Source: Arthrinium phaeospermum (taxonomy: Eukaryota; Ascomycota; Sordariomycetes; Amphisphaeriales; Apiosporaceae). From it: DNA of 64,000 nucleotides. Location: NCBI GenBank assembly GCA_006503535.1, contig QYRS01000014.1, positions 372,001-436,000 of the forward strand, read 5' to 3'. The stretch's first letter is position 1. Each line of letters opens with the position of its first letter. Made by a program: the position numbers and the translations under genes. The notes beneath the pieces are model-generated. The model ran no database searches. It saw nothing but the letters and a program-made list of their open reading frames with translations, and was not told the origin of the DNA. Of the stretch, positions 40,754-63,375 are shown piece after piece.

Positions 40754-40866
40754 GGAAAAGAGCCTCTCTTTTCGAAGCGTTATCACTGAGGTTGTCTCGT
40801 AGAAGGCCGACCAAATTGACATTATGTGCCCATTCGATAAGAAGATATATATACTTGTGACTCTAC

Positions 40867-42721
40867 CTACGCCAGCTTAGTGCTCTCATCGACCTCTGGC
40901 TCCACACGTTCCAGCAATACCTCCTCGAGCAGGGAATGCTCGACCTTGGGCCAATACTCCTCCCGCAACGTGCCACGTATCCAGTAATTCCCATACTCGT
41001 CCTTGCCCAAGAGGGTGAACAAACTCATCAGGGACGCCGGCGTGCTCTCCGTCGTCATGTGCATCTGGACGTTGGTCGGCTTCGCCACGCGAGGAGCTGA
41101 TCCCGACTTATCATCGTTATCCTTTTCAGCGGTCGGTAGCAATGCAGCTGAGAAGTCGAGGTCAAAGAACCGGGCCTTGAGCCAGTTGGTGCAGACGACC
41201 ATATGCATCCCCCCGTCCCCGAACAGCGCCGGCATGCCCCCCTTCTTGTCGAGGGCGACGCGCTGAAGCTTCAGGAGAGCCTCCACTTGGGGCCACGTGC
41301 CCAGTTCCTGGAGGGCCTGGCGCAGCTTGCCCGCCATGTGGCCGAGGGGCTTCTCCGATAGCTCGTGCGAGAGGAAGAAGGCGGGCACGGGCACTAGGGC
41401 GTTGCCCAGCATGGCGCTCTTCCTCTCGGCGCCGGCGACCAGCCCGGACTGCAGCAGGAGGTCCCGCAGACCCATCATGTTCATGACACAAATGGTCTGG
41501 CGGGCGTTGTGGGGTAGGCGGGCGGCGAGAAGATGGCGGGTCCACCACGCGCAGAGGACGTCGCCATCGCTCAGGAACGTAGGACGCGTGGACGGTGGTG
41601 TTTCATCTCCATGCTCCGCCACGATACTCCTTTGGTCTGGGCTCTCAAGCCACTCGCGCAGCGCGGCCTTCCGCAGGCGCTCTACGTAGGGTTTCGGCAC
41701 GCACACGATGCGCGCCTCTTCAACCGGGCGCCGGCGCCAATGGGATATCCTATCCACGATCTGGCGCAGGCCGAACATGAGGAACTGGCGCGGCCCGAGT
41801 TGGGCTTGGGCGTGCTTGTACTCCTCTACAGGCAGCGTGCACGCCTCCGTTTCCTCCGGCGTCGGCGCCCCGAGCGTGGCCATGGGATCGCGCTCCAGCA
41901 GCGGCGCCACCTCGTCGTCGCGGCCCTGCAGGGTCAACGACCACGCCTCCAGGAACGCCTTGCGGCCCATGGCGTCAAACAGCACGTGCGACCCCCGCAG
42001 CGTGACCAGCGTCGCATCCTTAAACGACACGACGTGGAGGCCCAGCACGGGCGCGTCGTCGTCGGCAGAGCGCAGGTAGTCCGCCAAGCGGGTCGGGTCC
42101 CCCGGTCGGCGCATCAGGGGCACAAAGTCCTCGCCCCGGGCCAGGATGCGCGGGGTCCGGAGCCGTCGGGCCGACGCGGCCCCGGGGACGCGCGCGCCCA
42201 GGGGGTGCTGCAGGATGCGCGCGTCGGGGTGCGAGTCGTGGTGGTACGCGATGGCGGGCCGACGGTCGGTGTAGCTCGGCGGGACGTGGTAGTCTAGTCT
42301 TCCGGCGGCCTGCGTGCTCGGCAAACACGCACGTTGATTGGTAAGCTAGGTTGAACATGGATGTTTCATTGCTGAAGTTTGCTTCTATTACGAAATCTTG
42401 TTTCTCTCTCTAGGGGCTGCTCGGAGTTTCTAGTGGTCTTACATTGCGCCGCAGCCTGCCGCCCAGCCTCCGCCAACCGTCTTGGCGGCTCAGGAGTCGC
42501 TCCAGCGCCCCCCGAAGTTTGGCCGCGTCGAGTGGGTGGTCGAACCGCAGCATAAAGTGCATGATGGCGTTGGTGTAACCGTGGTCCCAGTAGTTGACCG
42601 GGATCACCTTGTCTGTGGCTGACTTGCTGCCAGTCGCCAATGCGCGGACATGTGTCGCGATCGGTGTTGGTGCAACGCGCCGCTGCAGGAGCCGCAGCGC
42701 CTTGTCTCGGATGAGGGGCAT
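40867..42721 (-). CDS. BAHD-like acyltransferase
   Basis: Two exons (42443-42721 and 40867-42309; 133-nt intron with GTAAGA and CGCAG) give 573 residues. Seen: an N-terminal VNYWDHGYTNAIMHFMLRFD region, GWRRLGGRLRRN just before the splice, AGRLDYHVP after it, and the catalytic H-x-x-x-D in GSHVLFDAMG near residue 190. The D-F-G-W motif of plant BAHD enzymes is replaced by FDLDFSAAL, as usual for fungal relatives. Known: these CoA-dependent enzymes acylate hydroxyl or amino groups of secondary metabolites and also include trichothecene acetyltransferases. The placement between the membrane protein and the Baeyer-Villiger enzyme suggests late esterification. Probably cytosolic, without signal peptide. 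Donor and acceptor are not predictable. Confidence 0.83.
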
Positions 42722-43958
42722 CCTCCGTGGCGGAGTTGGTTGGCTCTTCGCGCAGGAGGAGCTGAAGGAAGCGCGGGATGGTGGGTAGAAAGTCCTATCA
42801 CCTCGGTTGGCAGGTTGGTGTGGTGCTTACTGAGAGACCAAGACAAGACATCCAACAAAGTTGCCAATTGCTTGGTTGCTCCTTCGCTTGACTATATTGA
42901 ACGGGCAAGAGTCCCTATCTAGTAAGACGAACGACCACATCACATGGCAAAGAAGAGGGGCAACCCTGCCATCTCGGTGTTCGGTCTAGAACTTCAGGAA
43001 CCCCGGACGCAGTATGCGACTCGCGCAGAAAGGTTGTTGATAACTGCAGGTTGGGGTAGCTTGGGGGTTGGGTCAAGGTGGAGCGATAAGCTAGTTGCGG
43101 GTACACGGGAACCTAAAGTTGACAGATGCTTGGTTCATGATAAGCGCTTGGCAGCTTGGCGCAGGCTGCATATGCAGAGCGTGCTGGGCGTTTGGTTGGA
43201 TTGGTTATGATTGCTACCTATACATAAGCAGGACATTCCCCCCTCTTCCTACAGTCCCCTCCCAGAAGATGCAGCATCCAGGTGCCTCGCTTGCTCAAAG
43301 GGGCAGGTGACTGGAACCTCTCGTCAGCCTTCCAAGGCGTATCAGTTGGATATGGTGGCTTTATCTGGGACGGCGGTCACGCCGGGTGACGTTGGTTTTA
43401 AGCGGGCTTGGCGCGTGTTGGTGAGCAGCGAACCAACCTCCAGAAAAAGTGCACCGCATCATGTTGTCTCAGGTAATAGCTGCTACGGCCGGAACGCACC
43501 GAGCCCGATCATATGAGGTCCGGAACAACCTGCCGACCAATCGGAAGGGCCATTATGCTAGCAGTCCTCTATCTCAGTGGCCCAGGCGTGCCGTCAGCTT
43601 ATCCCTGCAGCACGAGGCACTGTACATGTTGTTTCTTACTTGCACCTCAAACAGCAAACATGATGCTAAATGGAGAAGCTGAAAGGAAGGACCCGACTTC
43701 ACCTTTCCTTGGCGAAGCTGATGGTACTTTTCGAATCGTGGTTGTTCCGAGGACTGCGTGATACGAAAGGACGAGGAGGAGTCAGACGCAACCAAAGTTG
43801 GCAGTCAGGAAGGAACGCCTCTGGGCGTCTTGATGGGCGACTAAGTGCAGGTCGCTGGTCAGTTGTGCAATGGCACTCGCATTTCTACAAAGGTGGTTCT
43901 GCATCCGGTCTGGTGTCCTTAGCTGCACGATAGCGACACGGAACGACACATCCAGAGA
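42722..43958. other. divergent promoter region, no gene seen
   Basis: 1.2 kb between the divergent acyltransferase and Baeyer-Villiger-type genes. Only unconvincing frames are present. A shared regulatory region is plausible; no motif was identified. Confidence 0.5.
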
Positions 43959-45915
43959 ATGAAGCCGCAGCAGTGTTCCGTCATCGTCATCGGCGCCGGA
44001 GAGTCCGGCATTGCCGTCGGCTGCCAGCTCAAGGCCAAACTCGGAGTGACAGACTTCCGCATCTTCGATCGGCAAGGCGGAGTAGGGGGTGCTTGGTACA
44101 TCAACCGGTATCCCGGAGTTGCCTGCGACATGTAAGTGATCATATTTCATTATCATCATGCCCCCTTCGTTTCGCGAAGCATTGGTGATCAATTCAATGA
44201 AGTTCGGATATATCACTAACTCTTTCATTCTTATTCTTCTTAACGAACAGCCCTGCCTTGCTGTTCTCCTACTCCTTTGCGCCTAACTATGTATGGACCT
44301 CGCTGTTCCCCCCTGGTCAGGAGATCCAGCAGTACCTCGCCTCAGTGGCCAGCAAGTACGGCCTGGAAGACAACATCGAGCTCAACACCGAGGTGACCGA
44401 GGCGCAATGGCTGCCCGACACCGCCGAGTGGGAAGTGCGCGTCACCCGGCTGGTACCGTTCGCCGGCGACCTCAGCGAGGCCGAGCGGCAGCGTCGGGTC
44501 GCGCAGCACGGGCGAGCCAGCGTCTATCTCGAGGAAGAGGTCGTGCGGTCCAAGGTGCTCATCACCTGCGCCGGCGAACTGGTGGAGCCCAACGCCTGGC
44601 CTGCCAACGTCCCCGGCATCGAAACCTTCCAGGGCGAGGTGATGCACTCGGCCCGGTGGCGGGACGATGTAGACCTCACGGACAAGAACGTCGTCGTCGT
44701 GGGGACGGGCTGCACCTCGGCGCAGCTGGTGCCGACCCTGCTCGAGACCAGCAGCGGTACCAAAAACGCCACCGAGAAGAAAAGGGGGCGGCCTAGACAC
44801 GTGACGCAGCTCATGCGCTCGGCCACGTGGTACATGGCGCGCCCGACGCCGCCCCCGGACTCGTTCAACCGTGTTATGACCGCCATCCAGCTCATCCCCG
44901 GCCTCGGGCGCCTGCTCCGTCTCTGGCTCTTCCTGTACGCCGAGTCGACCTGGCTCAACATCGGCATGGGCGCCCTTGGCGTGACCCGGCGCCGCCGCTT
45001 CCAGCGCAGCCTACTGGCGCACATGCGCAAGATGGTGCCCGAGAAGTACCACGCCATGCTCACCCCGACCTTCGGCGTCGGCTGCAAGCGCATCATCATC
45101 GACGACGGCTGGCTCGACTGCCTCAGCCTGCACGACCGCTTCGAGCTCACCACGCGCCCGCTGGTCTCGGTCGGCGAGCGGTCCGTCGTCCTGGGCCCGT
45201 CGCCTGAGTCGGGCGACGAGAAAGGGGCGACAGAGCCCGCGACCGAGCCGGCCGACGTCATCGTCCTCGCCAACGGGTTCGAGACCTCGACCTACCTGCA
45301 CCGCGTCGCCATCCGCAATGGCGCCGGCCAGACGCTACACGACGCCTGGCGCGCACAGGGCGGGCCGGGGGCCTACTTGAGCACCGCCGTCCACGGCTTC
45401 CCCAACCTGTTCCTGGTGCTGGGGCCCAACGCCGTCAGCGGGCACTCGTCGGCCATCCTGGCGAGCGAGAATATCACGGGGTACGTGCTGCCCCACTTTG
45501 TCGCCAAGGTGCTGTCCGGGGAGGCGCGCACCGTCGAGGTCAAGGAGGATGCGGAGCGTCGGTACACGGCCGACGTGCAGAGGCGGTCGGTGGACAAGGT
45601 TTGGCAGGGGTGCCGGGGTGGGTATATTGCGGATTCGGGGTGGAATAGTTCGATTTGCCCGTGAGTTGAGTTGATTTTCATCTCCCCTGTCACTATTCAA
45701 ATGAAAGGTCAGTGCTGACGGTTTTGATGCATAACAGATACAACCAGATTCATTTCAGTATGATGTGCAAGTACCCTAAGTGGCAGGATTGGGACATTGA
45801 GTACACTGCACTGGGTAAAGCCCAACTCCAGAAACCTGGCCATGCAACCTACCTCTTTGTCGTGGCCGTGGTACTCACTGTGGCCTCAGTTCATCTTCTT
45901 TTACGTAGCAGATAG
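43959..45915 (+). CDS. Baeyer-Villiger-type flavin monooxygenase with C-terminal membrane anchor
   Basis: Three exons (43959-44131, 44251-45660, 45738-45915) give 586 residues. Seen: FAD motif VIVIGAGESGIAVGCQL at the start, the GGVGGAWYINRYPGVACD segment, the Baeyer-Villiger fingerprint F-x-G-x3-H-x3-W (FQGEVMHSARW) and the NADPH motif VVVVGTGCTSAQLVP, then C-terminal LVLGPNAVSGHSS. The last exon ends in a hydrophobic helix (LFVVAVVLTVASVHLLLR), so the enzyme is probably tail-anchored in the ER, near the P450s. Known: such enzymes insert oxygen next to ketones, forming esters or lactones, and some do epoxidation. It is the right end of the tailoring cluster. All phases agree and nothing appears broken. 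Confidence 0.9.
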
Positions 45916-46356: not shown

Positions 46357-47440
46357 ATGGAAGCAGCGAAAGGCCATTTCATAACCGATATGCTGGACAA
46401 GCCTGGAGACCTGATTATCCGGCTCACAGCTTCCGATATCGATGAAACCAACCCCTGTAGCAAAACACTGGTCGTTGACTCCAAGGCCATGCTACGCTCG
46501 TTGCCGCTACTCCATGCAAAACCGTGCGGACAACCATGCAACTGCCGGGTCATCGTTATTAAGGGCAGAATCAAAACCATTGAGATCATCCTGAACATCG
46601 TCCATGGTCACTTTCACATGGTCCCACAATCCATGGAAAGTTTGACAGACCTTTTCCTTGTTGTCAATGTGGCCAGCCAGTTAAGAGCTGTCCATTTGCT
46701 CCGCCCTTGGATTAACACTTGGCTCAGGGACCATCAACATTGGTACGAGTCATGGGACTGGAATAAGCGCACTTGCCTCGATGACTGTCAGATGAGACTT
46801 CACATTGCTATGACACTTGGTGAGAAACAACTGGTCAAACATATGGTCAACAGATATGTCCGAATTGCAACACTGGGCAAGGAATCACTCTCGCTTCGCA
46901 TTCTTGGCGAGTATCCGACAGGAACGCTGGAAACCTTTCGTAAGTATTCCATCTTGGTGATACTGACAGCATTTAAACCTGACTCCATCACTGACATAAT
47001 AACGCTTAGGCAACTTTTCGTGGATTCGCAACTCTGTCATCGTAGAACTCCTCGAAGCATACCGCCAATCTAGAGAGGAATGGGCCCGTGGCTTGCACTG
47101 CCATTGTACTGCCCCCAGCGCTAGCGATGCCACCAAGGCCTGGTGTACGTGCGCGATACAGAAGACCATAGCCACCGAGGCATCCCGCAGCCTATACAAT
47201 AGCGAAAGCGAGAGAAGAATGCCGATCCTTGATTCCATTGATGGCGTATACGATCAGATCATGAACATCGAGCAGTTCAGCACGCCTACCACCCCATATA
47301 GAATACACCACGCATGCAACCCGATCCAGCGATTGCGGGAACGACTGAGCCAGATCATCGACAACGCCCCCAGCCCTGTGGATCAAGATATGGAAAGGGG
47401 CCTGGACGTCCTTGCGATCCAGTCTGGTCTAGATCGTTAG
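46357..47440 (+). CDS. BTB plus C-terminal Cys/HxxCNP protein, copy A (divergent)
   Basis: Two exons (46357-46939, 47010-47440; 70-nt phase-1 intron) give 337 residues. The first exon is a fungal BTB-like domain: KPGDLIIRLTASD, TLVVDSKAMLRSLP, an IINIVHGHFHMVP-type stretch and LRAVHLLRPWINTWL. The second exon carries HCHCTAPSASDATKAWCTC (a Cys cluster) and HHACNPIQRLRERL near the end. The overall plan and the phase of the intron match the four copies between 54.4 and 63.4 kb, but identity is low, so this is the most diverged member. Known: BTB domains dimerise and recruit partners, for example Cul3 E3 ligases. The C-terminal part is not a family I recognise. Probably nucleus or cytosol; no signal peptide. 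Confidence 0.72.
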
Positions 47441-47883
47441 ACAGGCAAGAGGTATGAATTGGTAGCACTGCGGGCGATGGCAGCATATGGTCTGCGACTC
47501 AATGTGGCAGTGTGCATGAATAACAACCAATACACAGAAGCGTTTCGGACGGGCTCGTCGATCATTATCAAAAGAAATAATACGAAGGACAGTACTACGG
47601 AGTCCAAGAGGATGATATGTGGTGGAGCTGAAAAATGTGGCTGCTAATGTGGTCGGCCGACTTGCGCCAGGCCGACCTGAGGCGTTTTAATGTGGCAGCA
47701 TAGCCCTCGGCGGTTGCCTACCTTGACCATCTAACTTATGCACTTAAATATGCCTGCATTCCCACTGCCTTGACAGTCGCTCCACTAATTAGCACCGTCC
47801 AAAACACTGATTCCTTGTTCCTCATTTCCATTAATCCTCCGACTCTTTTATCATCCTTCACACTTCTATTAACTGCTATCACT

Positions 47884-48563
47884 ATGGCCGGCGTCGACAT
47901 CATTGCTGCTGTTGCTGGAGTTGTGGCAGTGCTAATCGCAGGTGGCAGCATGGTCCAAGAATGGGTAGAAAAAAGAAAGGGGCGATCTGCGCAGAAGGAA
48001 AACCAAGCCCTCCAACAGGCCCTGAGTGGAAACGGCACCGTCATTCAGAATGCCTACAATACAAAGCTGCAGCAGATCGGTCACCGATTTAGTCTAGGCG
48101 ACGGTGTGTCCCCTTTAATTTCCACTTCAAATAGCCCGTGGGTGAGGCGTGCCAGTGTCTCCCCGTCGCAGTCACCCTACTACACAACCCCATATGCGTC
48201 TATTACATACACATGCTGACTCGAGTCTGACTACCAGAGATAGTGGTCAGCCTTTTGAAGGACATCCTTATACTTGCCCAACAAATGCATATTGAGCAAC
48301 TCGGCCGCCAGCCCAGCAGATTGAGACTCGTCTTTCCCAAACACGAATTGCTACTGAAAGAATCTGAATCCATCCGACAAAAAACCCTATTAGCCCTCTC
48401 CGAGTACGCCCAACGTCTCCTCCAGGCGGCCCCAATCCGGCGGGCTCTTGTAGCTAGAGTCCAAAGGCTCCTTCCATTCCGTCGTCGAAAGCCGGTGCGT
48501 CTCTTGGACTTCAACTCTGATAGGCGCGATGGCCACAAGCTCAACTCAGACCTGCACGACTAA
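47884..48563 (+). CDS. small helical protein with hydrophobic N-terminus
   Basis: Two exons (47884-48103, 48238-48563; 134-nt intron with GTGTGT donor and CCAG acceptor) give 181 residues. Seen: MAGVDIIAAVAGVVAVLIAGG, a short hydrophobic helix; then a charged, Gln-rich stretch (EKRKGRSAQKENQALQQAL) and a second exon of helices with VVSLLKDILILAQQMHIEQL and a basic tail. The first ~25 residues resemble the N-terminal helix of fungal proteins found beside HET and NLR genes, where such helices are proposed to insert in membranes (inference). It lies between BTB copy A and the HET-domain gene. No known enzyme motif. In-frame sequence extends upstream of the chosen ATG, but that part looks like a 5' leader. 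Confidence 0.6.
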
Positions 48564-48979
48564 GACAACTCGGACGACTTCGACCCGCACGTGATCTACC
48601 ACACCGTATCCAAGGTTAGTGCCATAGCGACAGTAACGGAACAGACAGAGCTCAGCACAAGCATGGGAAACATACGCACATAGCACTATTAGCAGTCTGG
48701 GACAGGAGTACATATCCATTACTATTAATAATATAATAACCTTTTTCTTTTTGTTTAATCCATACCAAGTCTTCCTGGTAGAACCAAAAGATTCACAAAG
48801 AGCAGGCCACCTCAAGATTAGCCTGATAAGGAGTCAACTTAATGAGTCTTTAGCGTGCTGCTTGATACAAGAAATAACGACCGATTCCCACCGCTGAGCA
48901 CCTCAATATCTCCTGGCGCCTAAGTCAGAATTTGATGTCTACGCTTGTCAAACAAGCATCACTAGGGGAAGATGCATAC

Positions 48980-50803
48980 TCAGCCCAGTACCAAATCTTC
49001 CACTTGAGGACCTAATGCCTCCCAATCCCGCTTGTACATGGCACCTATGCCCGCTCTGTATGCGATCCCATCCTCCCGCTTCACCGCCATGATGAAGTAT
49101 ATTTCTTTCCCTCTCCTAGTGAATTCTGCTGAACGACAGAATGCATAGTCGTCAGTGTAGATGAGTCTTTCGAGGAAGCTAGTCCTGGACCCGGCGCGAA
49201 TGTATGGAACACAGGAAGAGAGGGCCACCAACTCGCAAGACCCGACCGTTACAGGCCACGGCTGTTCCTCCGTCCACCTGACGAGCCCGGAATGTTCGGT
49301 TGGTCCCTGAAACCGGCCAACCCTGCTGGCATCCATCCCTTCCTGTTTCGGCCACGGCAGGATAGAGGCGCGTCGGATCACCGGTGCTCGCGCACGCAGC
49401 AGATTGATATCGCTGTCCACAATTCCGGCGTGGTTGCCGTTGGGCCGTTCCCAATCCCACAGTGGGACGATGTGGTCCAGCTGCAGACCTGATCGCGGGA
49501 TGCTCCAGCAAACGAACCCCTGCCAACCCATCCACGACCAGCTAGGTGGTGGGGTAGTACCCTCTGGCCGAGTGGAGTCCCTGGTACGACGCCTTTTGGC
49601 AGGCAGACCCGTCCATAATAAGCATGTCGTCAGGTGCTGCACCGGGAGGCCCCACAACAGCCCCTCCGGGAAGAAAGGAACGAACTGCTTGGCCACACCA
49701 AGGAACGCGTCATGAACATCCTCGGGAAATGTGAAGTGCCTAGTGTTCTGTATGAAAGTATCAGCATCCTGAAGATAATCTTTTTTTTTCTCGTGGTGTT
49801 ACTGATTGCAAAACGCACATAGCTACCCACGAGTCTATTGTACATGGTGAACTCGTCTCTCAATACCGTGCTTGGTGATGTAGGAGACGGTACCAATATG
49901 TTTCGTGTGAGGTTTCGGTACATTATACCGCGTTCAATCGGACAATGACGGCCATCGGTGTCCCTGGAAGGGCAAAGTCCGCTATATCTCGTGGATCCAT
50001 GCCAGATACGGCAACCGCATTGCCAGACAACGAAGTCTTGACAGAAGACGAGCTTACGTCGAGAAAATATAGACTCTTGAAAGGTCCAACCCCTGGAGTA
50101 CTACGGAATCAAACGTCAGGTTCAGTCAAATGTCCACGGAAGTCGCAAGTGGGAGGCCAGTCACTTACCCAGGTCAGTTCGTTGGGATCCATACACCGCA
50201 TATAATGGTTGTGTTCCATCTCGTTGGGAAAAGATCGGGGGCCAGTGACCCCTTTCAGACCTCGGAGGCCATGGTTGGCGTCTGGTCCAGCCGCTGCCAC
50301 GATGGTCAAGTAGGCACCCTCGTATATGTCCGCCATGGCGTGCAGCTGGGCGTGCTTCGCTCGACACCTCCCCACACATAACTCAAGGCCAGGTACTCAT
50401 CGTCCACCTCCGTGGCCGGGACGATGCATTGCCTCTTAACGTCGATGAGCCACAGAGGACGACCGCGAGTCGCATCCTTCTCACGCGAAGATGAGCATGG
50501 GGGGTGGTCATGGTCGCAGAGATCTAGCCAAAACAAAATCTCGTAAATGTCAACCCAGGAAGCGTTGAGGTTAGCCGCATATTTCGGTTGCCGGCTATGA
50601 GTAGCATCATTCGTGGAGAATATTGGGGTTGAACTGGGAGCGGAGATGCGAGGGTCGGATGTGTATCTTATTGACTTCCAAACGCGAGGTGGGAGCAGTT
50701 CTCTGCCAATGGCATCAAGCCGCAAAATCAGTCTGCGATGCTGGTCGCGCATACCCGTCAAGCAGCTTAATGTCGCGAAAGATGGAGCAAAAGGTGAAGA
50801 CAT
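48980..50803 (-). pseudogene. HET-domain protein lacking the HET core, probable pseudogene
   Basis: The gene can be read as exons 50169-50803, 49819-50100 and 48980-49747 on the minus strand. Seen: a typical start of the HET domain (DDEYLALSYVWGG), then, within a few codons and in a different frame, AKHAQLHAMADIYEGAYLTI with the AAAGPDANHGL tail of the HET core. The ~60-70 residues normally between (the strand-helix core ending in W-V-D-x-L-C-I) are missing, and the frame is off by one or two bases. The downstream part is intact: spliced W-YSRGWTFQE, TFPEDVHDAFLGV after the last intron, and PSWSWMGWQG. Known: HET domains trigger incompatibility cell death after allorecognition. Without the core the gene should not trigger. 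The C-terminal reading frame is otherwise undamaged, so the loss may be recent. Confidence 0.7.
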
Positions 50804-52288
50804 GCGCGCCTCGTCGGGGTGCTCGATCGCTTATAAAGGAAAAAGCCCCGCAAACCTACCCTGGCGCAGCAGCGTGCGTCTCCATAGCGGTTTTCAGCCG
50901 AAGGCCTACGGATTGGGTCAGCAACGCTTGGAGCTCGTCACGTGGATCCCATACATACTTACATATTGAGATTCTTGATTGGTTGATTCGGCTCAGATCT
51001 TTAAAACTGTTAACCCAAGTCTTCCTCACGCTGAGTTCCAACCCCATTTGTCCTGAACGACCAATTAAATACCAGACCTGGTGATGGTGTTCTGTCTTTA
51101 CCAGGGCGGCTCGGTATGAGTCGAGAGAGAGAGAGAGAAAAAGAGAGTACAATGATTGATCGACACCTGGCGCTAAGATGTTGTTGTAACCCACCGCAGT
51201 GTCAACTGATATCGAGCTCCTGCCAAATGCACGCGTGGATTGTTAGCATGCGCGTACGACCCAAAGCGAAGGGTTGTTCCAAATGAATCGTGAGACCCTG
51301 TCAGCTGACAGGCGACTCGCCCGTAGAAAAATGCCATGCCATAGTTCGGGACGCCAGTCCGAGCACGGAGGGCCTCGGCGATGACATCGAGGTCACTCAG
51401 CACCGCCGACTCGTGAGCCGGTGGGCTCGCATGTCTCAACCCGCGCGCTATTACAGCTACTGGTCCCGCGCGCTAATCCGCGAGCGTTTGGGGTGGTGGT
51501 GGTGTCCGCGGGCCCAGCCGGGTGGCCGGGTCGAGGGCAATTTCTGCTTGTGCCTTGCTACGGCGAGTTACCATGGCCGGCAACTAAGCCCGCGCGCGAC
51601 GCCGCTATCTAGACCAAGTAGAACATTCCTGTGATAACGTCTCCAATATGGCGGGGACGCAACGACGGCGGCGTGGGCGCCTCGGTGCCCAACTGCACAG
51701 ACGTCACCACCACGTTGACCTACGTCAAGTATGTATTAACCATTCAGTTAGGCAACATAGGGTCTGGGAAGCGGACATGAAAAGACCTAGTTCTTGTATC
51801 TACCGGGTCATTCTCATGTTAGATATATAGATTCTTGGTGTCCGAGTGGAAATCAAACCGTCCCGTCTGGACATGCGCTCGCAGTATGGAGTACAAAAGA
51901 CCTTCCCGAATCTCGATGCGTCTTCATTTAGTCTTAAGTCATGCTGTAGCGTGCTGTCATATCATATCTGTTGCTCAAAAAGGGGCTACGAAACAATCAA
52001 ACCATCAGGTTGTTGCACATAACCATTAGGAGCGTAACATCGTTGTCTTCTCCCAACGACAGATTCCATACAACTTGGTACGTGTCACGTGGGGTTAGTT
52101 GCCCCACTACCGTAGATGGCTCCATACCAGCCATCCTAAATAGCGAGGGATCGTGAGATTATCATAAGTCCTTATGCGCCTACATATCCCATATTAAACT
52201 TCTGTCACCTCTGCCTTCTGGTCTTGTTTTTCTTCTTTTTTCTTTTCATCTCCAATTTCCCTTTTCCTATGATTCTCCCCACACCACG
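50804..52288. other. intergenic, no gene seen
   Basis: About 1.5 kb. Contains a GA/AG microsatellite-like run near 51120-51147 and no convincing reading frame. A C/T-rich leader precedes the ATG at 52289. Confidence 0.5.
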
Positions 52289-53881
52289 ATGAATGAGGGA
52301 AGTCCTGATAAGTTGGCGGACTGCTTTGCCGCCATCAAAGGGGAGAAAGTCCCACAAGACACGCACAGTCCGGTAGCCAAGGCCTCCCTTATTCGTGGCA
52401 TTCGCTTACACCACAGCTTCGCTACCAGTTCGGCCGTCAACAAGTTGTGCGACAAGGATGCCCAACTCGCCCGTGCCCGCAATGCTCGCCTGATCATGAG
52501 CAACCAGGTGCCCGAGCAAATGGCCGAGACGGAGCGCCCCTACTGTATCTGGCACCCCGACCTGGCTACGGATGACACCTATCGTCAGCTGGCGAGGCAA
52601 TATCCCGAGATGCGATATCACGTTGGTCGCTCCTGTGCCGCGGCCGGGTACCATGAACTCTACCTCGAGCTGGACCTGTTGCCCGACGTCTCCATCGCCG
52701 AGGAGGCCCGAGAGAGTGCAACCGACGGCGGACGCCTCATGTACCAACAAATCATGAACTCTCCTTGTCGCTACTCTGTAATGGACGATCGAACCCGGTC
52801 TGTCGAGTTGAGTAAGCCCCAATGCCCGGCGTTCCTGAACGGAGACACGCAGGTCCGGTGGTGGGTTGCGTCCCGCGTCCAGACGCCCGAGTCGTGGAAG
52901 TTCGCCGAGTTGAATACAATCGAGGAGGACTCCCGCATACACGAGAGTTTATTTTACCACCCGGAACTAGACCGGTCCCTGCGTCCAGACGAAGTCCGGC
53001 TCCTGTACGAGCCGCTACCTCCGGATCTCCCCACCATGAAGAAAGCCCTGCTCACCGAGATGGCTGCCTACGACGGCAATGTCGACCGCTATGCACGACT
53101 GAGGCACCCGCTAGATCCATGTTACACCATCGAGATAATGAGCGTCATCCGGGGAATCTATCACCACTCCATGTTTGCTCGATGGTGGGGTGACCAGATC
53201 ATGCACAATACGCCTCGCGCCCAAGCTACCGATGCGGAGATGGACCCATTTCCGGATAGCGATAGACCAGGATGGACCTACTTGGACTGGATCAAGCAGG
53301 CCATCATGGCACGCCGCATCATGGTCAACGCCGTGAGTGAGCAGGATCTGGACGAGGTCAAGGCGCACGGCTGGCCGGCAGGCGTACCCTATCCGCATTT
53401 CATATGGTGGCCGCACCGCCCGCACGAGCATTGGCTCTGGATGCTGGCCGACTATGACGAGCACTTCGCGGAGATCGCCGCCACGGCCGCCATCGTGTGC
53501 GACTACAAGGACCTATACTTGCACCTGAGGCCGCGGTTCGACAGGCAGCACGGCACTCTCTACCGACTCTTGGCCTCGGCGCAGAAGTCGCCCAATCCCT
53601 TCTACGCCGAGGACTTGGGGAAGGTGCCGGGGCTCCGGTTGTGTGGCATTGTAGAAGATGAAGAGTATTGGGTGGATGACTACGAGCCGGCCGGCCTTCC
53701 CGATCCGTATGAACCGGTTGAGGATAGCCTCTATTATGGGTACGGTCCGTATTACCGAGGCCATGCTGCCCAAAGCTACATGGCCGAGCACGCCGTGTTC
53801 AGGAGCTTGGGGCTGGACTTTACGCCTCGATCGCAGGCTGAGGAGCAGGAGCAGGCCACGCCCGAGGAGGGCACGAACTGA
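52289..53881 (+). CDS. 530-residue fungal protein with internal duplication, unknown function
   Basis: Single exon. The product is soluble, Trp/Tyr-rich and has no signal peptide or TM segment. Two stretches share one pattern: PYCIWHPDLATDDTYRQLAR near residue 84 and PHFIWWPHRPHEHWLWMLA near residue 368, each followed by a helix (AAAGYHELYLELDLL, AIVCDYKDLYLHLRP). Between them are segments such as VRWWVASRVQTPESWKF and IMSVIRGIYHHSMFARWWGD. So the protein is built from two related halves. I believe similar proteins are common, uncharacterised and multi-copy in filamentous ascomycetes, but could not verify this. The C-terminus is Gln/Glu-rich and disordered. No catalytic motif is identifiable. 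Coding appears intact. Confidence 0.75.
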   Translation: MNEGSPDKLADCFAAIKGEKVPQDTHSPVAKASLIRGIRLHHSFATSSAVNKLCDKDAQLARARNARLIMSNQVPEQMAETERPYCIWHPDLATDDTYRQLARQYPEMRYHVGRSCAAAGYHELYLELDLLPDVSIAEEARESATDGGRLMYQQIMNSPCRYSVMDDRTRSVELSKPQCPAFLNGDTQVRWWVASRVQTPESWKFAELNTIEEDSRIHESLFYHPELDRSLRPDEVRLLYEPLPPDLPTMKKALLTEMAAYDGNVDRYARLRHPLDPCYTIEIMSVIRGIYHHSMFARWWGDQIMHNTPRAQATDAEMDPFPDSDRPGWTYLDWIKQAIMARRIMVNAVSEQDLDEVKAHGWPAGVPYPHFIWWPHRPHEHWLWMLADYDEHFAEIAATAAIVCDYKDLYLHLRPRFDRQHGTLYRLLASAQKSPNPFYAEDLGKVPGLRLCGIVEDEEYWVDDYEPAGLPDPYEPVEDSLYYGYGPYYRGHAAQSYMAEHAVFRSLGLDFTPRSQAEEQEQATPEEGTN

Positions 53882-54410
53882 GAGCGGGGTGGGCAGAGTC
53901 TGGACTAATCATTTCTTCAACATAAAAAGTACGTGAAAGTCAGCATAAAGCACTCGAGGACTTCAAATATGCGATTTGGCTATCTGGGAGGGGACTCTTA
54001 TGGACTGATTTGGTCGTTCGGCGAACTTATTGGCGCATTGGTGCATTAGGAGGAACTCCGGGGTAAGGAACTTTTAGCCCATGACTGAGGCTCCTGGAGA
54101 AACCAAATGTTTAGTGGTAATGAATACGCGTATTGTTGTTGGACTCGTGTTTTGCTTGGTGGCATGGAACCCAGTTTCGCGACAAAGCAACGCGTGGGAA
54201 GTTCTCCCAGTAACCTGGAAGCACCCGGTGGGTACAAAGCTAGAATCACACAACAACAAGGCAAAACTCAACCACCCACACCATATTGGGCACAACCGCT
54301 TGTTGCACGTATCTTGGTTCTTCCCACAAATTGCCTATACACCATCTTGTCGCATTCACTTTTCGAGAAGACAGACACTGAATCGTTTGAACGACCACAC
54401 CCTTTCCTAC
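53882..54410. other. intergenic, possibly upstream coding of copy B
   Basis: No separate gene. The frame of BTB copy B stays open upstream to an ATG at 54081, but the added residues look like translated leader DNA and lie outside the BTB pattern, so the later ATG was preferred. Confidence 0.45.
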
Positions 54411-55740
54411 ATGGAGTATTACCCAGAGCAACGGTCCACCAAAGTGGTGCTGGTCGCAGATGGCGACCTCATCATCCGAGTCTCCGACACCAGCGATCGA
54501 TGGATAGATAAGGACTTTCTTGTGGACTCAAACACGGTAAAACGCTCGTCCAATTCGTGGGAAGCGCTGGTCGCCGGAAAATCCGCCAGTTCTGGATTTG
54601 ATGTCGTAACTATCACAGACAAAGCTCAGTACCTCGGAACCATTCTCTCTATTATGCATTGCAAGTTTGGAGATGTACCCTCTGAACTTGACGTGTCGGA
54701 GATCTATAAGCTCCTCCAAATTACCGAAGCGTACGAAGTAACACACCTACTTCGACCCTGGGCTGCTTCTTGGATCAAACCATGGCAAGACGGCGACTTC
54801 CTCACTCTGCCACCCAATATAGAACATGAAATGACCATAAGGATGCTCGGCGAGCGAATCTGGATTGCTTCGGTACTGGGCGAGAAAGAGATACTCAGAA
54901 AATTGACGCAGTATATTATCAAAGCGATACCCTTCAATTATGAGTATTCTCTCTATGAGGGCGAAGGGTGTGCGTTCTCACTGTTGGAGTTCCCCGAGAT
55001 TCCTGGCCTTTTGGGTAAGTCTTACTAATTAGTACGAGGCTGTAAGTTCATTATTAACAAAAGGAATGTCGCTAGACTATGTAAGAGGCGAGCAACTGAG
55101 ACGGCTGCAACAGCTCCACGCGGTCTTCGAGAAAGTTATGGAACGCGGCAACGAATACTACATTCACCAATTTAGCAGCGACCGCCGTCCCGGCGAGCGT
55201 TACCAAGACTACGACTGCTGTCAATGCGGCAAACACCACATATGGGGCGAATTTTGCCAACTTTGTACCCGCCCCAAGGGCGAACAAGCCATGTGCAACT
55301 CTGTCATCTTGGGGTCGATAATCCGTGGCTATCGGCAATACAAGTCAAGGATGATTAAGAATGACTACATCTCGATTAGCGACGAGGAGGGAAAGACCGC
55401 CTCAGAGTCAATCGAACCCGGCGAGCTGAAGCAAAGCCTCGAGGAACATTTTTGTGAGCTGCGGAACATCAAAATATATGGTCTCCCCGAAGCCACAGGT
55501 TACAAAACTACGACCAGGTACGGGAAGACGCATGGCGACTGCAACCCTACCGCCTGGATAAGGGCCCAGCTGGAGGACGTACTGTCCGACATCGCAGAGG
55601 ACCTAGGGGAAGAACTCGAGTCGAGCCTGGACGAGCGAGCTAGGCGCACAGGAATGTACAATCAGCTAAAGCGAGCCGAAAGCGAGACCCCCAAGGAGAC
55701 AAAGCAGACGAAGAAGAAGAAGATGACGGAACGATCATAG
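54411..55740 (+). CDS. BTB plus C-terminal Cys/HxxCNP protein, copy B
   Basis: Two exons (54411-55014, 55076-55740; 61-nt phase-1 intron) give 422 residues. The first exon is a fungal BTB domain: ADGDLIIRVSDTSD, KDFLVDSNTVKRSSNSWEAL, ILSIMHCKFGDVP, LLQITEAYEVTHLLRPW, then a helical back part ending EFPEIPGLL. The splice gives DYVRGEQLRRLQQLHAVF, a Cys knuckle CCQCGKHHIWGEFCQLC, MCNSVILGSIIRGYRQ, and later HGDCNPTAWIRAQLEDVL; the tail is Lys/Glu-rich. Known: BTB domains dimerise and recruit ubiquitin-ligase or transcription partners. The knuckle could bind zinc (inference). It starts the same-strand array of four. It appears intact; the alternative upstream ATG at 54081 would add 110 residues. 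Confidence 0.78.
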
Positions 55741-56690
55741 GTGGCAAACGACGACAACCGCTAGGATCACCACCTAAAGCTATGATTTGGCGTCTAGCAA
55801 AAAGGCGTTTGATGCATCGGTCGTCTGCTTGCCATGCATGTGGGAGGTCCTAGCACGCTGAGAGCAAAGACGTCAGTTGATGCAATCATTCATCCCTTAG
55901 CCTTGTTGGCAAAACATAAACAGTAACTGGTCGGCTTCAACGACAACACACTTCTCTTCTGTATGAAGAAGAATAATGGTAGTTATGGATAAAGTAGGAG
56001 TTGATTTTATGAATAGGAAAGAGTTATGAATCGACAGTGGGACATAGGAAAGTGAATTTTGGATTGATTGTAGATCCACCGACAAAAGGACCATGATCTG
56101 GAGTTTCGAAAACGCTGAGATTGTCTTGACGGGTCATTCCGATACCAGGGGATTTCCGAATAGTAGATTGACATTGGTTTTTTCTGGAAGCTCCTCAGAT
56201 AAATGCCATAGCAGCTCTGCACCAGATCAAACTCTCGTCGCAGAGTCCTGCGAGGTGAACACTGATGGACGCCTTCTAGTCTACAGATATGTGCTGCCCT
56301 AGTGGAATCGCGGGAGGTTTGCCAAGGACAAAGAAATCACAGATAGCAAAGACAAGCCTCCCAAGAGTCAACTTGTGGTCGGAAAGAAGAACTATGGCAT
56401 TTCTTACTCACTCCTCAAAGACGAGGGCATCTGTGTGGTTGCTTGAGTGGGCCTGATTGGTATGAAATGGAATACGGCGGAATCCCAAAGCAGCGATTGC
56501 CAAACCTGACTTCCTGCACAACGCCAAGTCTCAGCATTATTATAAGTACACGTCAGATTTACCTTGCAGAGAATGGGCCTCTTTCCAATTGAACTTTGGT
56601 ACTCTTTGTGCATCCTACATCGATGTGCCACAACTTCACGAAGTCTTGATCCAACAGAAAGATCTGGCTTCGCGCATTCCAGACAAAGAA
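55741..56690. other. intergenic between copies B and C
   Basis: 950 nt. Only short frames without domain pattern. AT-rich. It presumably holds the promoter of copy C. Confidence 0.5.
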
Positions 56691-57967
56691 ATGGATAGCC
56701 TGGACGACGCAATGATCGAGGATGCTTCGTACGAAGAAATCAGCTTCGACACCGATGTCATTGTAGAGAATGGCGACCTCTTAATCCTTGTCCGTGAGAT
56801 TAAGGATGACAAGAACCTGAGAGAGTCGCGCCGTGCATTCCTCGTCGACTCTAGAGTCATTTCAGAATCATCTGCCATATGGAAAGCGCTTGTGCCACGA
56901 AAGCGCAACGGTTCCGGCCGCAACGTAATAGAAGTCACGGGCGACATCTGGTACCACGAAAGGCTCTTTCTCCTCATGCACGAAGAGTTCTGTTACTCCT
57001 TTACTCACTATGATGAGGATGATTTCTTTGAACTTCTTAAATTTACCGATGGATGGGGAGTAACATATCTGATCCTGCCTTGGTTCACCCATTGGATCGA
57101 TGAGTTGGAATACTTGAACCCAGATTACAAATCGATCTATTACATGGGTCTTGAGATTCTCCTGATTCGACTTTGGACGGTCTGGACTTTGGGACATCGA
57201 GAAGCATTCCAAAGTCTCACTAGGGTTCTTGTAAGGCGAGTTGATATTAGCGACCACAAGTCCGAGCTCACTTTCGATGACGCATGTCTATCGGAGGCAT
57301 TTGACAAGTTCGGTGTGCCAGAAATACCTGGTTTGATAGGTACGTTGGATCTTTGAATGCGTATAAGCCACTAGTACGTGATTAATCATACTAACGTCGC
57401 GGATTGATGCAAGACTATGTAAAAAGAGAACGAGAAAAGAAACTACAGGAACTATATAGCATCTTCGATGAGTTTATGGACAGCGCATATGGCCGATTCT
57501 GCAAACTGAAATCCCGGTCTGTTGACGAACAGCACAAGTGCGACAGTACAATCATGGGGTCAATATTCCTCGGCCGTCAAAGAATATTGACCAGGATTGG
57601 TTCCGACAAATCCCTCGATGAGACATTCCGCGGCATGTTTCGAATTCCGATCTACAATCTTACTATCATGAAAGAGAATGAGAGCAACACATTGTCAAAG
57701 TCTCCGGTTCATAATACTCCGTCAACATCCTACCAGACTCACGATGAGTGCAATCCTACACGTTCCCTGCGTAGCCGGTTGGATATGGTCATGTCCAGCA
57801 TTGCGACAGTGTTGGATAAGGACCACGAGCGTGCCTTGATTAAGCCAGTCAATATCTATGGTGCAGATAACGAGGATTTTGTAGTCTCAGCATACAATGA
57901 GTCGGATATCGAGACAGACTCCGATGTGACGCTGCCGTTAGTCGACGAGGATCAGGACTCGAACTAA
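56691..57967 (+). CDS. BTB plus HxxCNP protein, copy C (Cys knuckle missing)
   Basis: Two exons (56691-57339, 57414-57967; 74-nt phase-1 intron) give 400 residues. The BTB part reads ENGDLLILVREIKDDKN, RAFLVDSRVISESSAIWKAL, LFLLMHEEFCYSFTHYDEDD, LLKFTDGWGVTYLILPWFTHW and ends VPEIPGLI. The second exon starts DYVKREREKKLQELYSIF and has CDSTIMGSIFLGRQ and HDECNPTRSLRSRLDMVM, but the Cys knuckle present in copies B, D and E is absent (only KCDST remains). The tail is acidic (SDIETDSDV). So it has lost, or never had, the putative zinc site. It may act as a partner-binding variant. Start chosen as the first ATG (56691). Confidence 0.76.
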
Positions 57968-58559
57968 CGTTGCTTGTGTGAGACACCACGGTACACATGG
58001 CTTGTGGTTCATCGCGAATGACCAGACTTGAGACTCCTCGTAATTGGAGCCATGCACTAGCATCGGGTGAAAAGTCAACCCTAAAGACCAATGCAATTAT
58101 CAGCTTATGCATCTTCTTGTTGTTTCAGCGAAGGCAAGAGAGTCCTGAACACCGTGCCATTGGATTGGTTAGACCTTACATATTACCTTAGTGTATTCGA
58201 TAGATCCCTAGAAGTCGCTAAATTAGACACAAGTGCCGGATTTGAAGTGAAGTGTTCTTGATGTAAAGATTTAGCTTATGAGTGGGGAGCTGAGTATCTA
58301 AGAAATAAGGCGGGTGTCTAAGTGCCTGAGCAACCGGATCAAAGGAATATGATTCATGAATGGGACATCACTTTGTTTACTAGTCTTCGGTCCCAAGGCA
58401 AACATCCACGGTGCTCCTTCAAAACTGAGGCCAGAACACCCCTCTAGTGTAAAAGCATCAACATTGTCTACATTTCATACTCCCGTACACGGCTTCGCCT
58501 CCACCACAACTTCAGCACAAGAGCACCGAACCTGCTGAGTCTTCTTCCTCTTTGTCAAT
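57968..58559. other. intergenic between copies C and D
   Basis: 590 nt, AT-rich, no gene. A pyrimidine-rich leader precedes the ATG at 58560. Confidence 0.5.
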
Positions 58560-59871
58560 ATGGAGACACTTAGCGAGGCATTGTCCAAAGTCATCCTGGA
58601 CGAAGATGGCGACCTCTTGATCAAGATCATCGACCCAACCGTCTCCGACGCGAAACGGGACTTCCTCGTCGACACCCATGCTGTAGCTCGATCGTCCGAA
58701 AGATTGAGGGAGCTGGTCAAGACTGGACAAGCAGGGTCTGGCGGAGCTAAACATGCTTGGATAACCCTCGAAGGTGACGCGGCATCCTACGAAGTGCTCT
58801 TTTCCATCATGCACTGCAAGTTCGCCGATGTTCCGCTTCGTCTGAGCAAGGATCGGCTCTTTGCCCTCCTCACGATCACAGAGGAGTACCAAGCAACCCA
58901 TCTTCTGAAGCCGTGGACTGCAACATGGACAGTGCCCCATCAAGACTTGCCCAAGACACTTTATTGGGATACTGACCAACTTGTACCGGAGTTACACAAG
59001 CGCCTCTGGATCACGTGGGTCCTTGGTGAGAAAGAGCTGTTTAGGCAGAGTATCAAGCGCCTCATCGAAGAGATGAACGTTGTTGGAGACTCCGACATTT
59101 CCATAAGGGCGACCCCTTTCTCACAGAAGCCCGAGATTCCTGGTCTTTCAGGTAGGTTCCAGAAGTCCAATAAGATGTTTGGTGCAATCCTGACATCTAC
59201 ATACCACTTGCAATGCAAGTTGAGACTAACGCAAAGGATCGGTAACAGACTACTTGAAGAGAGAATACCACAACAAAACCCAGGAGCTCTACCGTGTTTT
59301 CGAGAGAAAGATAGAGCACCACATGAACAGCCTGAACTTCGACAGCGACGACGCATCGGAGGACTCTGACTGCAACGACTGCGAATGCGCGTGTGACAGC
59401 TGCCTACGCAATGGAGAGTTCTGTAGTCTCTGTTGTTCGGGGGGAGTCGATGAGACCGAAATGTGCAACTCTATAGTCATTGGCTCGATGATCCGCGGCT
59501 TACACCAAAAGAAGTCATATCTAGCCAGTCGCGACCCAGCTGAGAGGAGCGTTTTGGAAATATACAAACGTCTCCGCGATATCAAGATCTACCGCTTCCC
59601 AACGCTAGCAGATTACGACGTATCTACCGAATTCAGCAAGAAGCACTCCGCTTGCAATCCTTCCCACAAGATACGTGCCAATTTAGATCGAGTCATGAAT
59701 AGCATCGCAAAGACCCTGGATCCGGATATGGAGATTCACCTAGACCACCAGGCCAATCTTACAGGTTTGGACGAACAGTCGATGAAGGACCGGGAGATGC
59801 CACCCAAGAAGAACAAGAAGAAGAGACGGGAAAGCTACCCTGTGGTTTCAGACATGGATTTGACCGACTAA
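58560..59871 (+). CDS. BTB plus C-terminal Cys/HxxCNP protein, copy D
   Basis: Two exons (58560-59151, 59249-59871; 97-nt phase-1 intron) give 404 residues. BTB part: EDGDLLIKIIDPT, RDFLVDTHAVARSSERLREL, AWITLEGDAASYEVLFSIMH, LFALLTITEEYQATHLLKPW. The back half ends KPEIPGLS. After the intron comes DYLKREYHNKTQELYRVFER and the richest Cys knuckle of the family (CNDCECACDSC then NGEFCSLC), MCNSIVIGSMIRGLHQ, HSACNPSHKIRANLDRVMNS and a Lys-rich tail (KKNKKKRRES) that could be a nuclear signal. It is the copy that fits the family consensus best. Two extra codons of the GC-rich exon agree with neighbours; nothing is broken. Confidence 0.82.
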
Positions 59872-60252
59872 CGACGTGGCACTGGCTTGAAGATCTTTCG
59901 ATTAATGGGCAGGGTTCCGGTTAGTTTTGCACTGTATCGCGTTTTGCGATAGCATAACCGGTAGCACAGATGTACCTTTGGGTTCTTAGGTGACTGGTGG
60001 ATGTCAAACTCTTGACTGCTGTCCTGGGGAGTTTCTCAATCCATATATCCTGACTTTAGTCTTTACGATAGCTGGCAAGATCTGTACATAGATAGGTAGT
60101 AATGCGCACTAAATCGCCTGAGCTTGTAGAAAAGGGACCATATGTCAATAGTCAAGCGGTTGTTTTCTCTATAAGGGCTGTTTCAAAGGCTCTTTTCTTC
60201 ATCATTGCGTCAAATGCATTCCTTTTCGGCATCAAGAAGTCCACATCCGCCC
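59872..60252. other. spacer between BTB copy D and the secreted-protein gene
   Basis: 380 nt, AT-rich, no gene; the two flanking genes are convergent, so it holds their 3' ends. Confidence 0.5.
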
Positions 60253-60738
60253 TTACTCTCTCGCCACGAGAGCAAGGCTCGCAGTCCCAATCTGAAAGCA
60301 GACAGTAGGCAGGGGCCCATTGCAACCTGCGTAGAAACTGCCAGCAAGTTCCGTGCTGCAGTTAATGTTGATCAGCGACTTCTTCGAGGCAACAGAAGAT
60401 TATTTGTCTGTGTTGATAAACACTCACCCGTCTTCAAGCGTATGCTGGATTTCCATAGTCCACTGATTGTCTTGTGGACTCGCCGAGACCGAGAAGGTGT
60501 AGGCATGTTCGGTGCAAGTGAACCGCTCCGATGGGATGACTCCCAGCGCATCGCTGACGCAAGTGATGGAGTGGTTCAGCAGCGAGAAGGATACTTTCGT
60601 CTCGCCGGATCGACTATCGCGCACAAAGTCGTTGACGAGGAGTTGCTCAATGGGCGGTCTTGCAGATAAGGATTCCACGGGAGAAGCCACGACGCTAGCG
60701 GCTGCAAGTGCGACGATTGTTCCAGTGACGGACTTCAT
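60253..60738 (-). CDS. small secreted four-cysteine protein
   Basis: Two exons on the minus strand (60428-60738 and 60253-60355; 72-nt intron, GTGAGT donor and CTGCAG acceptor) encode 137 residues. Seen: a signal peptide (MKSVTGTIVALAAASVVASP, cleavage about residue 19-22), then a compact domain with Cys60, Cys75, Cys115 and Cys123, which could form two disulfides, and aromatic beta-strand patterns (AYTFSVSASPQDNQWTMEI). Splicing brings the last two cysteines (GCNGP and TVCFQ) into frame just before the stop, which supports the intron. Known: secreted beta-sandwich proteins of this size are a common effector-like class. It lies on the opposite strand inside the BTB array. Toxicity or host target cannot be inferred. 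Confidence 0.76.
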
Positions 60739-62205
60739 GATGATGCTCTCTTTGATAGTGGGATGATTGCCAAGGTAAGGGTATGAGTTTGGTCGGCGGG
60801 GAATCTCGGAAGTGTGGGACAAGTGCGGCAAAGTGGGGGACCCAGAGGTATAAATAAACATCTTGATTTTTAATCCCAGGTTGAAATATCTCGTATTGAA
60901 AAGAAACGTGCGATGGAGGTGTGGATGTTTGTGTATGCTATGTCGTGCAATACATCCTTGGTCATCCTTGGCATGCATTCGTTTGAGCGATCATACCCCC
61001 TTTTCGGCAATACCTACTATTTCCCCAGCCGAACCCGTACGCCGCTTCGCCATCAATGCATCATTCAATATATATCTTCCTTTTCGTGTCGCTATGTGAC
61101 GTTGCTTTGACACTAATGTAACATAGCAAAAGCTCGGATAAATGAGAGCACGCCATGCCTGCGGGGAAACATCTTAGATACCTATGCATTGGAAGGGCCT
61201 GGCAGGGGTGCAATGCCCAATCGGGAAGAGGGGGTTAAACCTAGGAAATGCGACAGCGTCTTCTCGACGACAGATCCAAAGAAAATATTGACTATGTCTT
61301 TGACTAATGCATGTTGGAAACCGCGAGAAGCATACTGGCTGGAACACCTGTGATTAGATCCGGTTGCAATTAGAGAATATCGTGGCAAGCACTTCTTTCT
61401 TCTTCTTCTTTTTTTTTCGATTCATACAAGCACCGCGAAGGTCCTAAGCGGGCATGGAGATTTGTATGGACCACCAGGCAGAACTTACAGGGACAAGAAG
61501 TCAAAGAGGGCACAGTAGCAAGCACCAGAGATAATGGGCCAGAGGTCAGGGATCTCGATGTCAGCCTTAGAAAGAGTTGGCGCTTACCACAAGATGGCCC
61601 AGTATGCCTAGGGCCCACCATGGACCCATGGGCGGATCGTTGGTTGTGATATGGAAGCCAGTGTACATCAAGCGGGTGGTGTTCGTCGTTGAGGTATGGC
61701 GTTCGTGTGGCTCGTCTACTACAAGGATTACTCGGATGATGTATGTTAACCCAGATATCAGCGATGACTGGAAAGATATGTGTCTGATTAACAATGGACA
61801 TCGCAATGTGGCTCGGACACGGGCAACAGTAGATATCGGCATAATCTTTGCTTATGCTCATGCTTTGGCTACTGACTGAGAATTGGCTGCCTGTAGAAAG
61901 CAGCATGTGAACAGTCGTCTCGGGAAAGAAACCTGGGCAAAGGCCCAGGACTAAGGCAGCGTCGTCTAGGTATTACTGTATACGTTTCAGTCCCAAGGCA
62001 CCCACGCTTTCTATTTTACAAAAGCGAACTGGATTCCCCTCGTAACCGACCCTTAATAATTCTCGCTACTCGTACATCCATTTGCAGGTTCTTCTTACAC
62101 CTCTCACGGCCACAACTTACAGACAAACGTATTGAGTCAGTCCTGCTCCACGACATCACTCACGACGAATTCTTGAAGCAGTCAGCTGCTTTACCACACG
62201 GAAAC
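60739..62205. other. spacer before BTB copy E, no gene supported
   Basis: About 1.5 kb. It contains open frames on both strands around 61370-61906 that show no domain, Cys pattern or splice support. It presumably carries the promoters of the divergent secreted-protein gene and copy E. Confidence 0.45.
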
Positions 62206-63375
62206 ATGGAAACTTGTGGAGAGGAATTCTCTAGAGTGGCCATTGACCAAGATGGCGACCTCTTGATCAGAATTACCAGCAGAGATGCGCATGTCCAAAG
62301 CAAGGAGTTCCTCGTCTACTCCGATGCTGTGGGCGAAGCATCAGAGAAGTGGGGTGATCTGGTATCAAAGGCCGAGCAAGGTGGTTCAGCCGAATCTCGA
62401 TACACCATGCTGGCTTTAGAGGGTAACTGCGCATCATATGAAATCCTGTTTTTCATCATGCATGGCAAGTCCGAATATGTACCACAGGACATTTACCCGG
62501 AGGACTTCCATGACCTGCTCGAAATAACTGGTGAATATCAAGCAACAAGTCTGCTTCGACTCTGGGTTCCAGCATGGATCAAAAATCACCAGGTAGTACC
62601 TGACTGCGTTCCGGCTATTTACGACAGCTTGTTTCTTGTATCAAATCTCCAGCGACAGTTTTGGATCTCTTGGATGCTTGGCGACAAGCAAACGTTCCGA
62701 GAACTAATTCAGTTTTGCATCTTGAAAACACCCATCAACGATGGGGTGAGCATCTTCGAGGATGGTACTGGATTCTTGAATTTCCCCAAGATCCCTGGTC
62801 TTCTTGGTAAGTTATGAAGCATGAGAGACTCCATCACCTGCACAAGTCGGCACCCCTATAAACAGCTGACATATGATCTTTTACCAGATTACATCAAGAA
62901 GGAGCGCCGAGGCAAAGCTCAGGAGCTTCGCGGCGTCTTCGAGAAGGCGATAGAAAACAAGGACTTCCCCGACGATCTCGATGACCCCTCAGATCTGGAC
63001 GACTGCAAATGTGGCCATCATAAGCTCAACGGCCAATATTGCCGGCTCTGCCGCAGTTCGGATGAAGAGAAGTTCATGTGTCACTCGATGATCCTTGGGT
63101 CGATGGTTCATGGCTACCGGCAACAAATGTTGCCTTTGAACAACAAGCTCCGGCATACGGTCGAGGATGTCTACAATAGACTGAGGGGCATTCAGATATT
63201 CAGCTACCCCGAGACGGCAACTTGCATGAGCCGCTCGGGACACACTCATGACTTCTGCAACCCTAAAGATGGGATACATAGAGAGCTGGATCGAATCTTC
63301 TCACGTGTCGCCAAGGTCCTGGATCCGAAACATGAACAGCACCTGAGCCGGCAAGCCAAGTTTACTGGCTTGTAA
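62206..63375 (+). CDS. BTB plus C-terminal Cys/HxxCNP protein, copy E
   Basis: Two exons (62206-62806, 62888-63375; 81-nt phase-1 intron) give 362 residues. BTB part: QDGDLLIRITSRD, KEFLVYSDAVGEASEKWGDL, LALEGNCASYEILFFIMH, LLEITGEYQATSLLRLWVPAW, ending FPKIPGLL. The second exon reads DYIKKERRGKAQELRGVFEK, DCKCGHHKLNGQYCRLC, MCHSMILGSMVHGYRQ and HDFCNPKDGIHRELDRIF, then stops soon after RQAKFTGL, so the basic or acidic tail of the other copies is missing. The Cys knuckle is complete. The first ATG (62206, METCGEEFS) was used. It is the last array member in the window; further copies may lie beyond the right edge. Confidence 0.8.

Follow-up and report, generated by a model that had tools for sequence, protein, structure and literature searches.

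What is the row of similar two-exon genes on one contig of Arthrinium phaeospermum, how far does it reach, and what would its proteins do? The window, that is, the whole stretch of 64,000 nucleotides (nt) analysed here, corresponds to positions 372001-436000 of contig QYRS01000014.1 (hereafter C14), a 953 kb contig which encloses the array, in a genome of 48.4 Mb in 19 contigs; genes within the window are given in window numbering. An earlier note on this DNA had described a five-member family of BTB genes with a new C-terminal module, four of them in a same-strand array, and had read it as tandem birth-and-death evolution in the company of allorecognition genes. BTB proteins are known as the substrate-recruiting subunits of cullin-3 (Cul3) ubiquitin ligases, and BTB1 of Neurospora crassa is reported to bind Cul3 (PMC2996332). 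Our analysis reveals that the array is real and somewhat larger than first reported, that lineage-specific BTB expansion is already known as a phenomenon, and that the module is undescribed and more widely distributed than the array.

The five window genes (B1-B5) all lie on the + strand, rather than four of them only, and each consists of two exons separated by a GT-AG intron in phase 1, with a product of 337-422 amino acids (aa). B1 comprises a BTB-like exon 1 at 46357..46939, also placed by its clade membership in the tree described below, an intron of 70 nt at 46940..47009 (GTAAGT..CTTAG) and exon 2 at 47010..47440, which carries a module with two cysteines, a histidine and a cysteine (C-C-H-C) and the motif HHACNP. 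B2 has exon 1 at 54411..55014, an intron of 61 nt at 55015..55075 and exon 2 at 55076..55740, with extra cysteines, HGDCNP and a lysine-rich tail; in B3 the corresponding parts are 56691..57339, 57340..57413 (74 nt) and 57414..57967, the last with HDECNP and an acidic tail and free of the extra cysteines. B4 extends over exon 1 (58560..59151), an intron of 97 nt (59152..59248) and exon 2 (59249..59871), which shows extra cysteines, HSACNP and a basic tail like a nuclear localisation signal (NLS), and B5 over exon 1 (62206..62806), an intron of 81 nt (62807..62887) and exon 2 (62888..63375), with extra cysteines and HDFCNP and no tail extension. These gene models are purely sequence-based: frame-keeping introns were enumerated and the GT-AG candidate at the common position was then taken, which means that introns were picked for place and open frame, without RNA support. 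The features of exon 2 were read from the alignment and, for B4, from a structure model as well. A YTRAY match resembling a branch site begins 19-23 nt before the 3' end of all five introns. The gene models bear out the starts and the phase-1 introns of 61-97 nt given before, and the pairwise identity is moderate as had been said (24-41%); H-x2-C-N-P is found in 5/5 copies, and the copies do differ in tail and knuckle, with extra cysteines in three of the five. The other two motifs that had been named are less general, since P-[EK]-I-P-G occurs in four copies and the exon-2 start D-Y-[VLI]-K holds as D-Y-[VLI] in four, B2 reading D-Y-V-R, while B1, the most diverged copy, has neither.

The array continues beyond the window end. 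Directly after B5 comes B6 (C14:436039-437234, 366 aa, intron 95 nt), followed by B7 (C14:437992-439134, 353 aa, intron 81 nt) and then B8 (C14:about 475945-477176, 384 aa, intron 77 nt), all on the + strand with the phase-1 intron at the same place. The intergenic gaps from B2 through B7 are 0.6-2.3 kb, and B1 and B2 are 7.0 kb apart. For every one of the eight a gene model with open frames, the phase-1 intron and H-x2(3)-C-N-P can be built, the introns having been chosen to keep the frame. When B4 is searched against its own genome, 21 matches are obtained at E<=0.1, two of which are B4 itself; because the other copies are found at E down to 1.8e-35, the resemblance among them is not by chance. 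Altogether the family has no fewer than eight copies in the array and six dispersed through the genome (C10, C3, C1a, C1b1, C1b2 and C17). With B4 as query, C17 and C1b2 give weak matches (E 0.005 and 0.003), with C1b1 as query they reach E 2.1e-5 and 1.4e-47, and a stretch at C11:460530-460820, which lies over the Pfam BTB cut-off and is matched by C1b1 at E 1.7e-5, may be a seventh.

These dispersed relatives also tell something about the age of the gene plan. With the best-ranked GT-AG candidate used for each (five were modelled), an intron in phase 1 sits at the equivalent position in C1a, C1b1, C1b2 and C17, C3 offers no clean candidate, and the frame of C10 is open through the intron place. 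In the orthologs of C10, a group represented by A. marii PG985_000032, the intron stretch is left out in eight of nine annotated models that reach past the place, and P0010 reads through it. The intron and exon 2 predate the array. The 735-aa database protein P0004 (Apiospora sp. TS-2023a PG984_013468) looks like two adjacent family members, related to C1b2 and C1b1, that a single gene model has joined. Another array of BTB genes, all on one strand, was seen at C6:495941-507026, with cysteine pairs near the C-terminus; it differs from the B array by its clear PF00651 matches, and it gave no tblastn match to the 26 family rows at E<=1e-3.

Is the first half then a BTB domain? As far as Pfam is concerned the name given by the note finds no backing, for none of the five proteins matches PF00651 at E<=5 (the gathering score was not reached), and none of the 22 PF00651 pieces in the genome falls on the contig of the B array. 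What upholds it is the fold and the relatives. A structure model of P0001, the A. marii relative of B4, built from 18 sequences with a mean predicted local distance difference test score (pLDDT) of 70.7, has the BTB domain of KEAP1 as its best match in both structure aligners, although a Foldseek E of 0.001 was not reached, and its fold matches further include BTB structures from the ZBTB, BACH and NAC1 proteins. Among ten database relatives, three pass the Pfam BTB cut-off (P0008, P0010 and P0011), three fall just under it and four have no match. B4 aligns with C10 over residues 7-380 (E 4.8e-13), and P0010 and P0011 are orthologs of C10; the array family was in this way found homologous over its full length to proteins carrying PF00651. 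By model and relatives, the first half of the array proteins is a predicted BTB fold.

The second exon has no such known counterpart. No exon 2 of the five exceeded a Pfam cut-off, and its model, all helical with a mean pLDDT of 72.3, gave no useful match among PDB structures. The module can nevertheless not be called new to the array or specific to it, because dispersed paralogs and other fungi share it. In an alignment (A4) of the five window exons 2 with 11 of the 19 database proteins found, C59, C73, H133, C136, L165 and G173 are invariant in 16/16 rows, and in a second one (A1) of 15 family members, with C3 left out, the same holds for C270, H330 and C333. Profile comparison by hhalign aligns the array exon 2 with the C10 family over 106 columns at E 9.1e-5, with C..C..H..C in register, and with Monilinia at E 0.0045; it lends no support for Xylaria (E 0.16) or for P0004/C1b1 (E 0.18). 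We consider C-C-H-C a candidate zinc site, which would bind the metal through these four residues. Three members speak against such a site: C3 and the Monilinia protein P0007 are devoid of the H-x-C part, and the model of P0016 has no H stretch. In B2, B4 and B5 a C-x-C precedes the first core cysteine and a C-x2 step follows it. The tails vary further: among the eight array copies K[KR]x[KR] occurs in the last 40 residues of B2 and B4 only; B3 and B6 have acidic tails, and in B1, B5 and B7 the protein stops close to the module. To judge from the basic tails of B2 and B4, some copies may act in the nucleus.

Regarding the history of the copies, a tree of 26 rows and 343 columns unites all eight copies of the array with five relatives of Apiospora or environmental origin (97/95) and keeps the dispersed relatives outside this clade, which supports the tandem, lineage-specific expansion proposed earlier. 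B7 groups with B8 (100/99), and B1 and C17 sit on long branches with uncertain positions. Protein matches of B4 at E<=0.001 are confined to A. marii PG985_008079 and PG991_012314 (73%) and A. saccharicola PG996_004430 (37%). B2 pairs with the last of these (P0003; 100/98, 68% identity), and B4 groups with the A. marii proteins (73-74%), P0005 and A. saccharicola PG996_004427 (100/99). Since both group with relatives from other species, at least these two lineages have been long retained and are older than the splits from A. saccharicola and A. marii. PG996_004427 (B4-like) and PG996_004430 (B2-like) are three locus tags apart, therefore, as read from the tags, the array is probably shared with A. 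saccharicola. Birth-and-death is supported in part only: the long retention does not sit well with it, but a pair from A. marii would fit variation between strains. In this one pair, P0001 (gene set PG985) and P0002 (PG991), 42 residues out of 394 aligned are different (89% identity), and all of them fall in columns 1-261, part of the differences near columns 198-205 stemming from differing splice models; the last 137 columns are identical, a run not equalled in 100,000 shuffles. Such a mosaic would result from recombination or gene conversion, be it between alleles or between paralogs. The C10 protein P0009 is a single sequence on two contigs, perhaps of the same two A. marii strains.

The explanation that we favour, at a probability of about one half, is that a fungal BTB family expanded in tandem within one lineage, its proteins joining a Cul3-docking or dimerising BTB half to a zinc-binding, target-recruiting C-C-H-C module and its copies having differing targets. 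The BTB half with the following helices would dock onto the cullin-3 ubiquitin ligase, or dimerise; the module would bind zinc and recruit a target protein; duplication would have let the copies take different targets, and extra cysteines and tails may tune target and location. A set of Cul3 adaptors is the simplest mechanism, although we infer every step beyond the fold. A cullin profile matches three genome loci over most of its length, with shorter matches elsewhere. Known CUL3 adaptors (KEAP1, KLHL, SPOP) likewise combine a BTB half with a second part and have 3-box helices after the BTB fold, to which the 3-box-like helices in the model may correspond; unlike them, the array family has neither Kelch nor MATH domain, the C-C-H-C helical module stands in their stead, and its Cul3 binding is putative. 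Closer likenesses are uncharacterised fungal BTB proteins of 356-468 aa (PG985_000032 and its Apiospora orthologs, Xylaria venustula F5Y03DRAFT_216856 and Monilinia DSL72_005197), which have a BTB half followed by a C-terminal half, several such relatives, P0003, P0007, P0009 and P0013 among them, being named 'BTB domain-containing' at source. C-C-H-C is present in the PG985_000032 orthologs in A4 and in Xylaria, while the Monilinia protein differs from the array in its missing H-x-C part. None of them has the extra cysteines of B2, B4 and B5, and some pass the Pfam BTB cut-off, which the array proteins do not.

The surroundings of the array are mixed and form no clear allorecognition island. 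Of the HET and ankyrin genes named earlier, there is one HET fragment over the Pfam cut-off (28.1 bits against 22.5), covering positions 55-110 of 146 of PF06985, on the minus strand at 50112-50396 between B1 and B2, and one ankyrin open reading frame (ORF) at 27245-28714, which is 17.6 kb from B1. The ORFs next to the HET fragment, in other frames, look as if they were additional exons or parts of a disrupted gene, and a single ORF of 574 aa at 52157-53881, also between B1 and B2, has no Pfam match at E<=0.01. Nearer to B1 on the left are P450 matches (34121-35800 and 37909-39135), an acyltransferase/transferase match just below the cut-off (40870-42345) and an FMO-like gene (44201-45661), and this stretch, 34121-45661, resembles part of a secondary-metabolism cluster. 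To the right of B7 follow an AT-rich block, a kinase, an intact DUF3435 gene, a second AT-rich block and then B8. The blocks (C14:about 439750-441000 and 472500-475100) show dinucleotide indices like those of repeat-induced point mutation (RIP), many of their 250-base bins having 7-27% GC. The DUF3435 ORF (C14:447540-450011, minus strand, 824 aa), a captain-type recombinase of Starship elements, lies 8.4 kb from B7.

Several other explanations compete for the same data. Instead of ligase adaptors, the proteins may be dimerising nuclear regulators of chromatin or transcription that bind DNA, RNA or partners through C-C-H-C and the extra cysteines. We regard this as unlikely. In its favour, the lysine-rich NLS-like tails of B2 and B4 recur in their A. 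saccharicola and A. marii relatives, and ZBTB, BACH and NAC1 are among the fold matches; however, only these two array copies carry the tail motif, and no known DNA-binding domain exceeds the Pfam cut-off. That the array is an allorecognition locus, where the BTB half differs from strain to strain and the meeting of incompatible versions sets off a response, we regard as rather improbable. The A. marii mosaic and the HET fragment would agree with it, but the former is a single pair of gene models of unproven orthology with the splice-model difference noted above, the B2 and B4 lineages were retained across species, and BTB is not mentioned in the 15 papers covered, out of 74 found by the literature search. 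No HET or NLR domain exceeds the Pfam cut-off in the five array proteins, and such a domain is not common to every known het gene. A related version, in which recombination or gene conversion keeps the BTB halves of an old tandem array polymorphic between strains while the C-C-H-C part stays constant, so that strain-specific adaptor sets serve self/non-self or parasite recognition, is in our opinion quite improbable; yet should the differences in the A. marii pair be truly allelic, the array would become a candidate for a type of recognition locus absent from those 15 papers.

It is very improbable that a Starship-type giant transposon, with its captain between B7 and B8, carries the array as cargo or gave rise to it as a by-product. 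Thirteen DUF3435 pieces in the genome were grouped by us into seven loci, and the probability that one of seven falls in the array span, computed after the observation, is about 0.008; the intact captain ORF and the RIP-like blocks would accord with this as well. Against it, the upstream flank of the captain (C14:450012-456000) shares no exact 15-base repeat, direct or inverted, with C14:362001-447400 or 456001-486000, shorter or inexact ends not having been sought; DUF3435 genes on their own are said to be the commoner case (PMC12134995), and the tag spacing in A. saccharicola is what a resident array predicts. Least probable of all is that the copies are drifting duplicates devoid of function: the low identity among the five window copies and the very long branch of B1 would be expected then, but all eight retain the modelled gene plan, B2 and B4 have relatives at 68-74% in other species, and the RIP indices over B1-B5 are negative.

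An expanded family of BTB proteins does not stand alone. Lineage-specific expansions of one BTB architecture are reported for MATH-BTB in Caenorhabditis elegans and BTB-NPH3 in Arabidopsis, in a survey whose two yeasts have five and six BTB proteins (PMC1257465); unlike those described there, the present array is filamentous-fungal, tandem and equipped with another partner domain. Our literature search found few accounts of BTB adaptors from filamentous fungi. This family contributes a domain as yet without a name, with a candidate zinc site that can be tested, and an array that would lend itself to mapping the targets of single copies.
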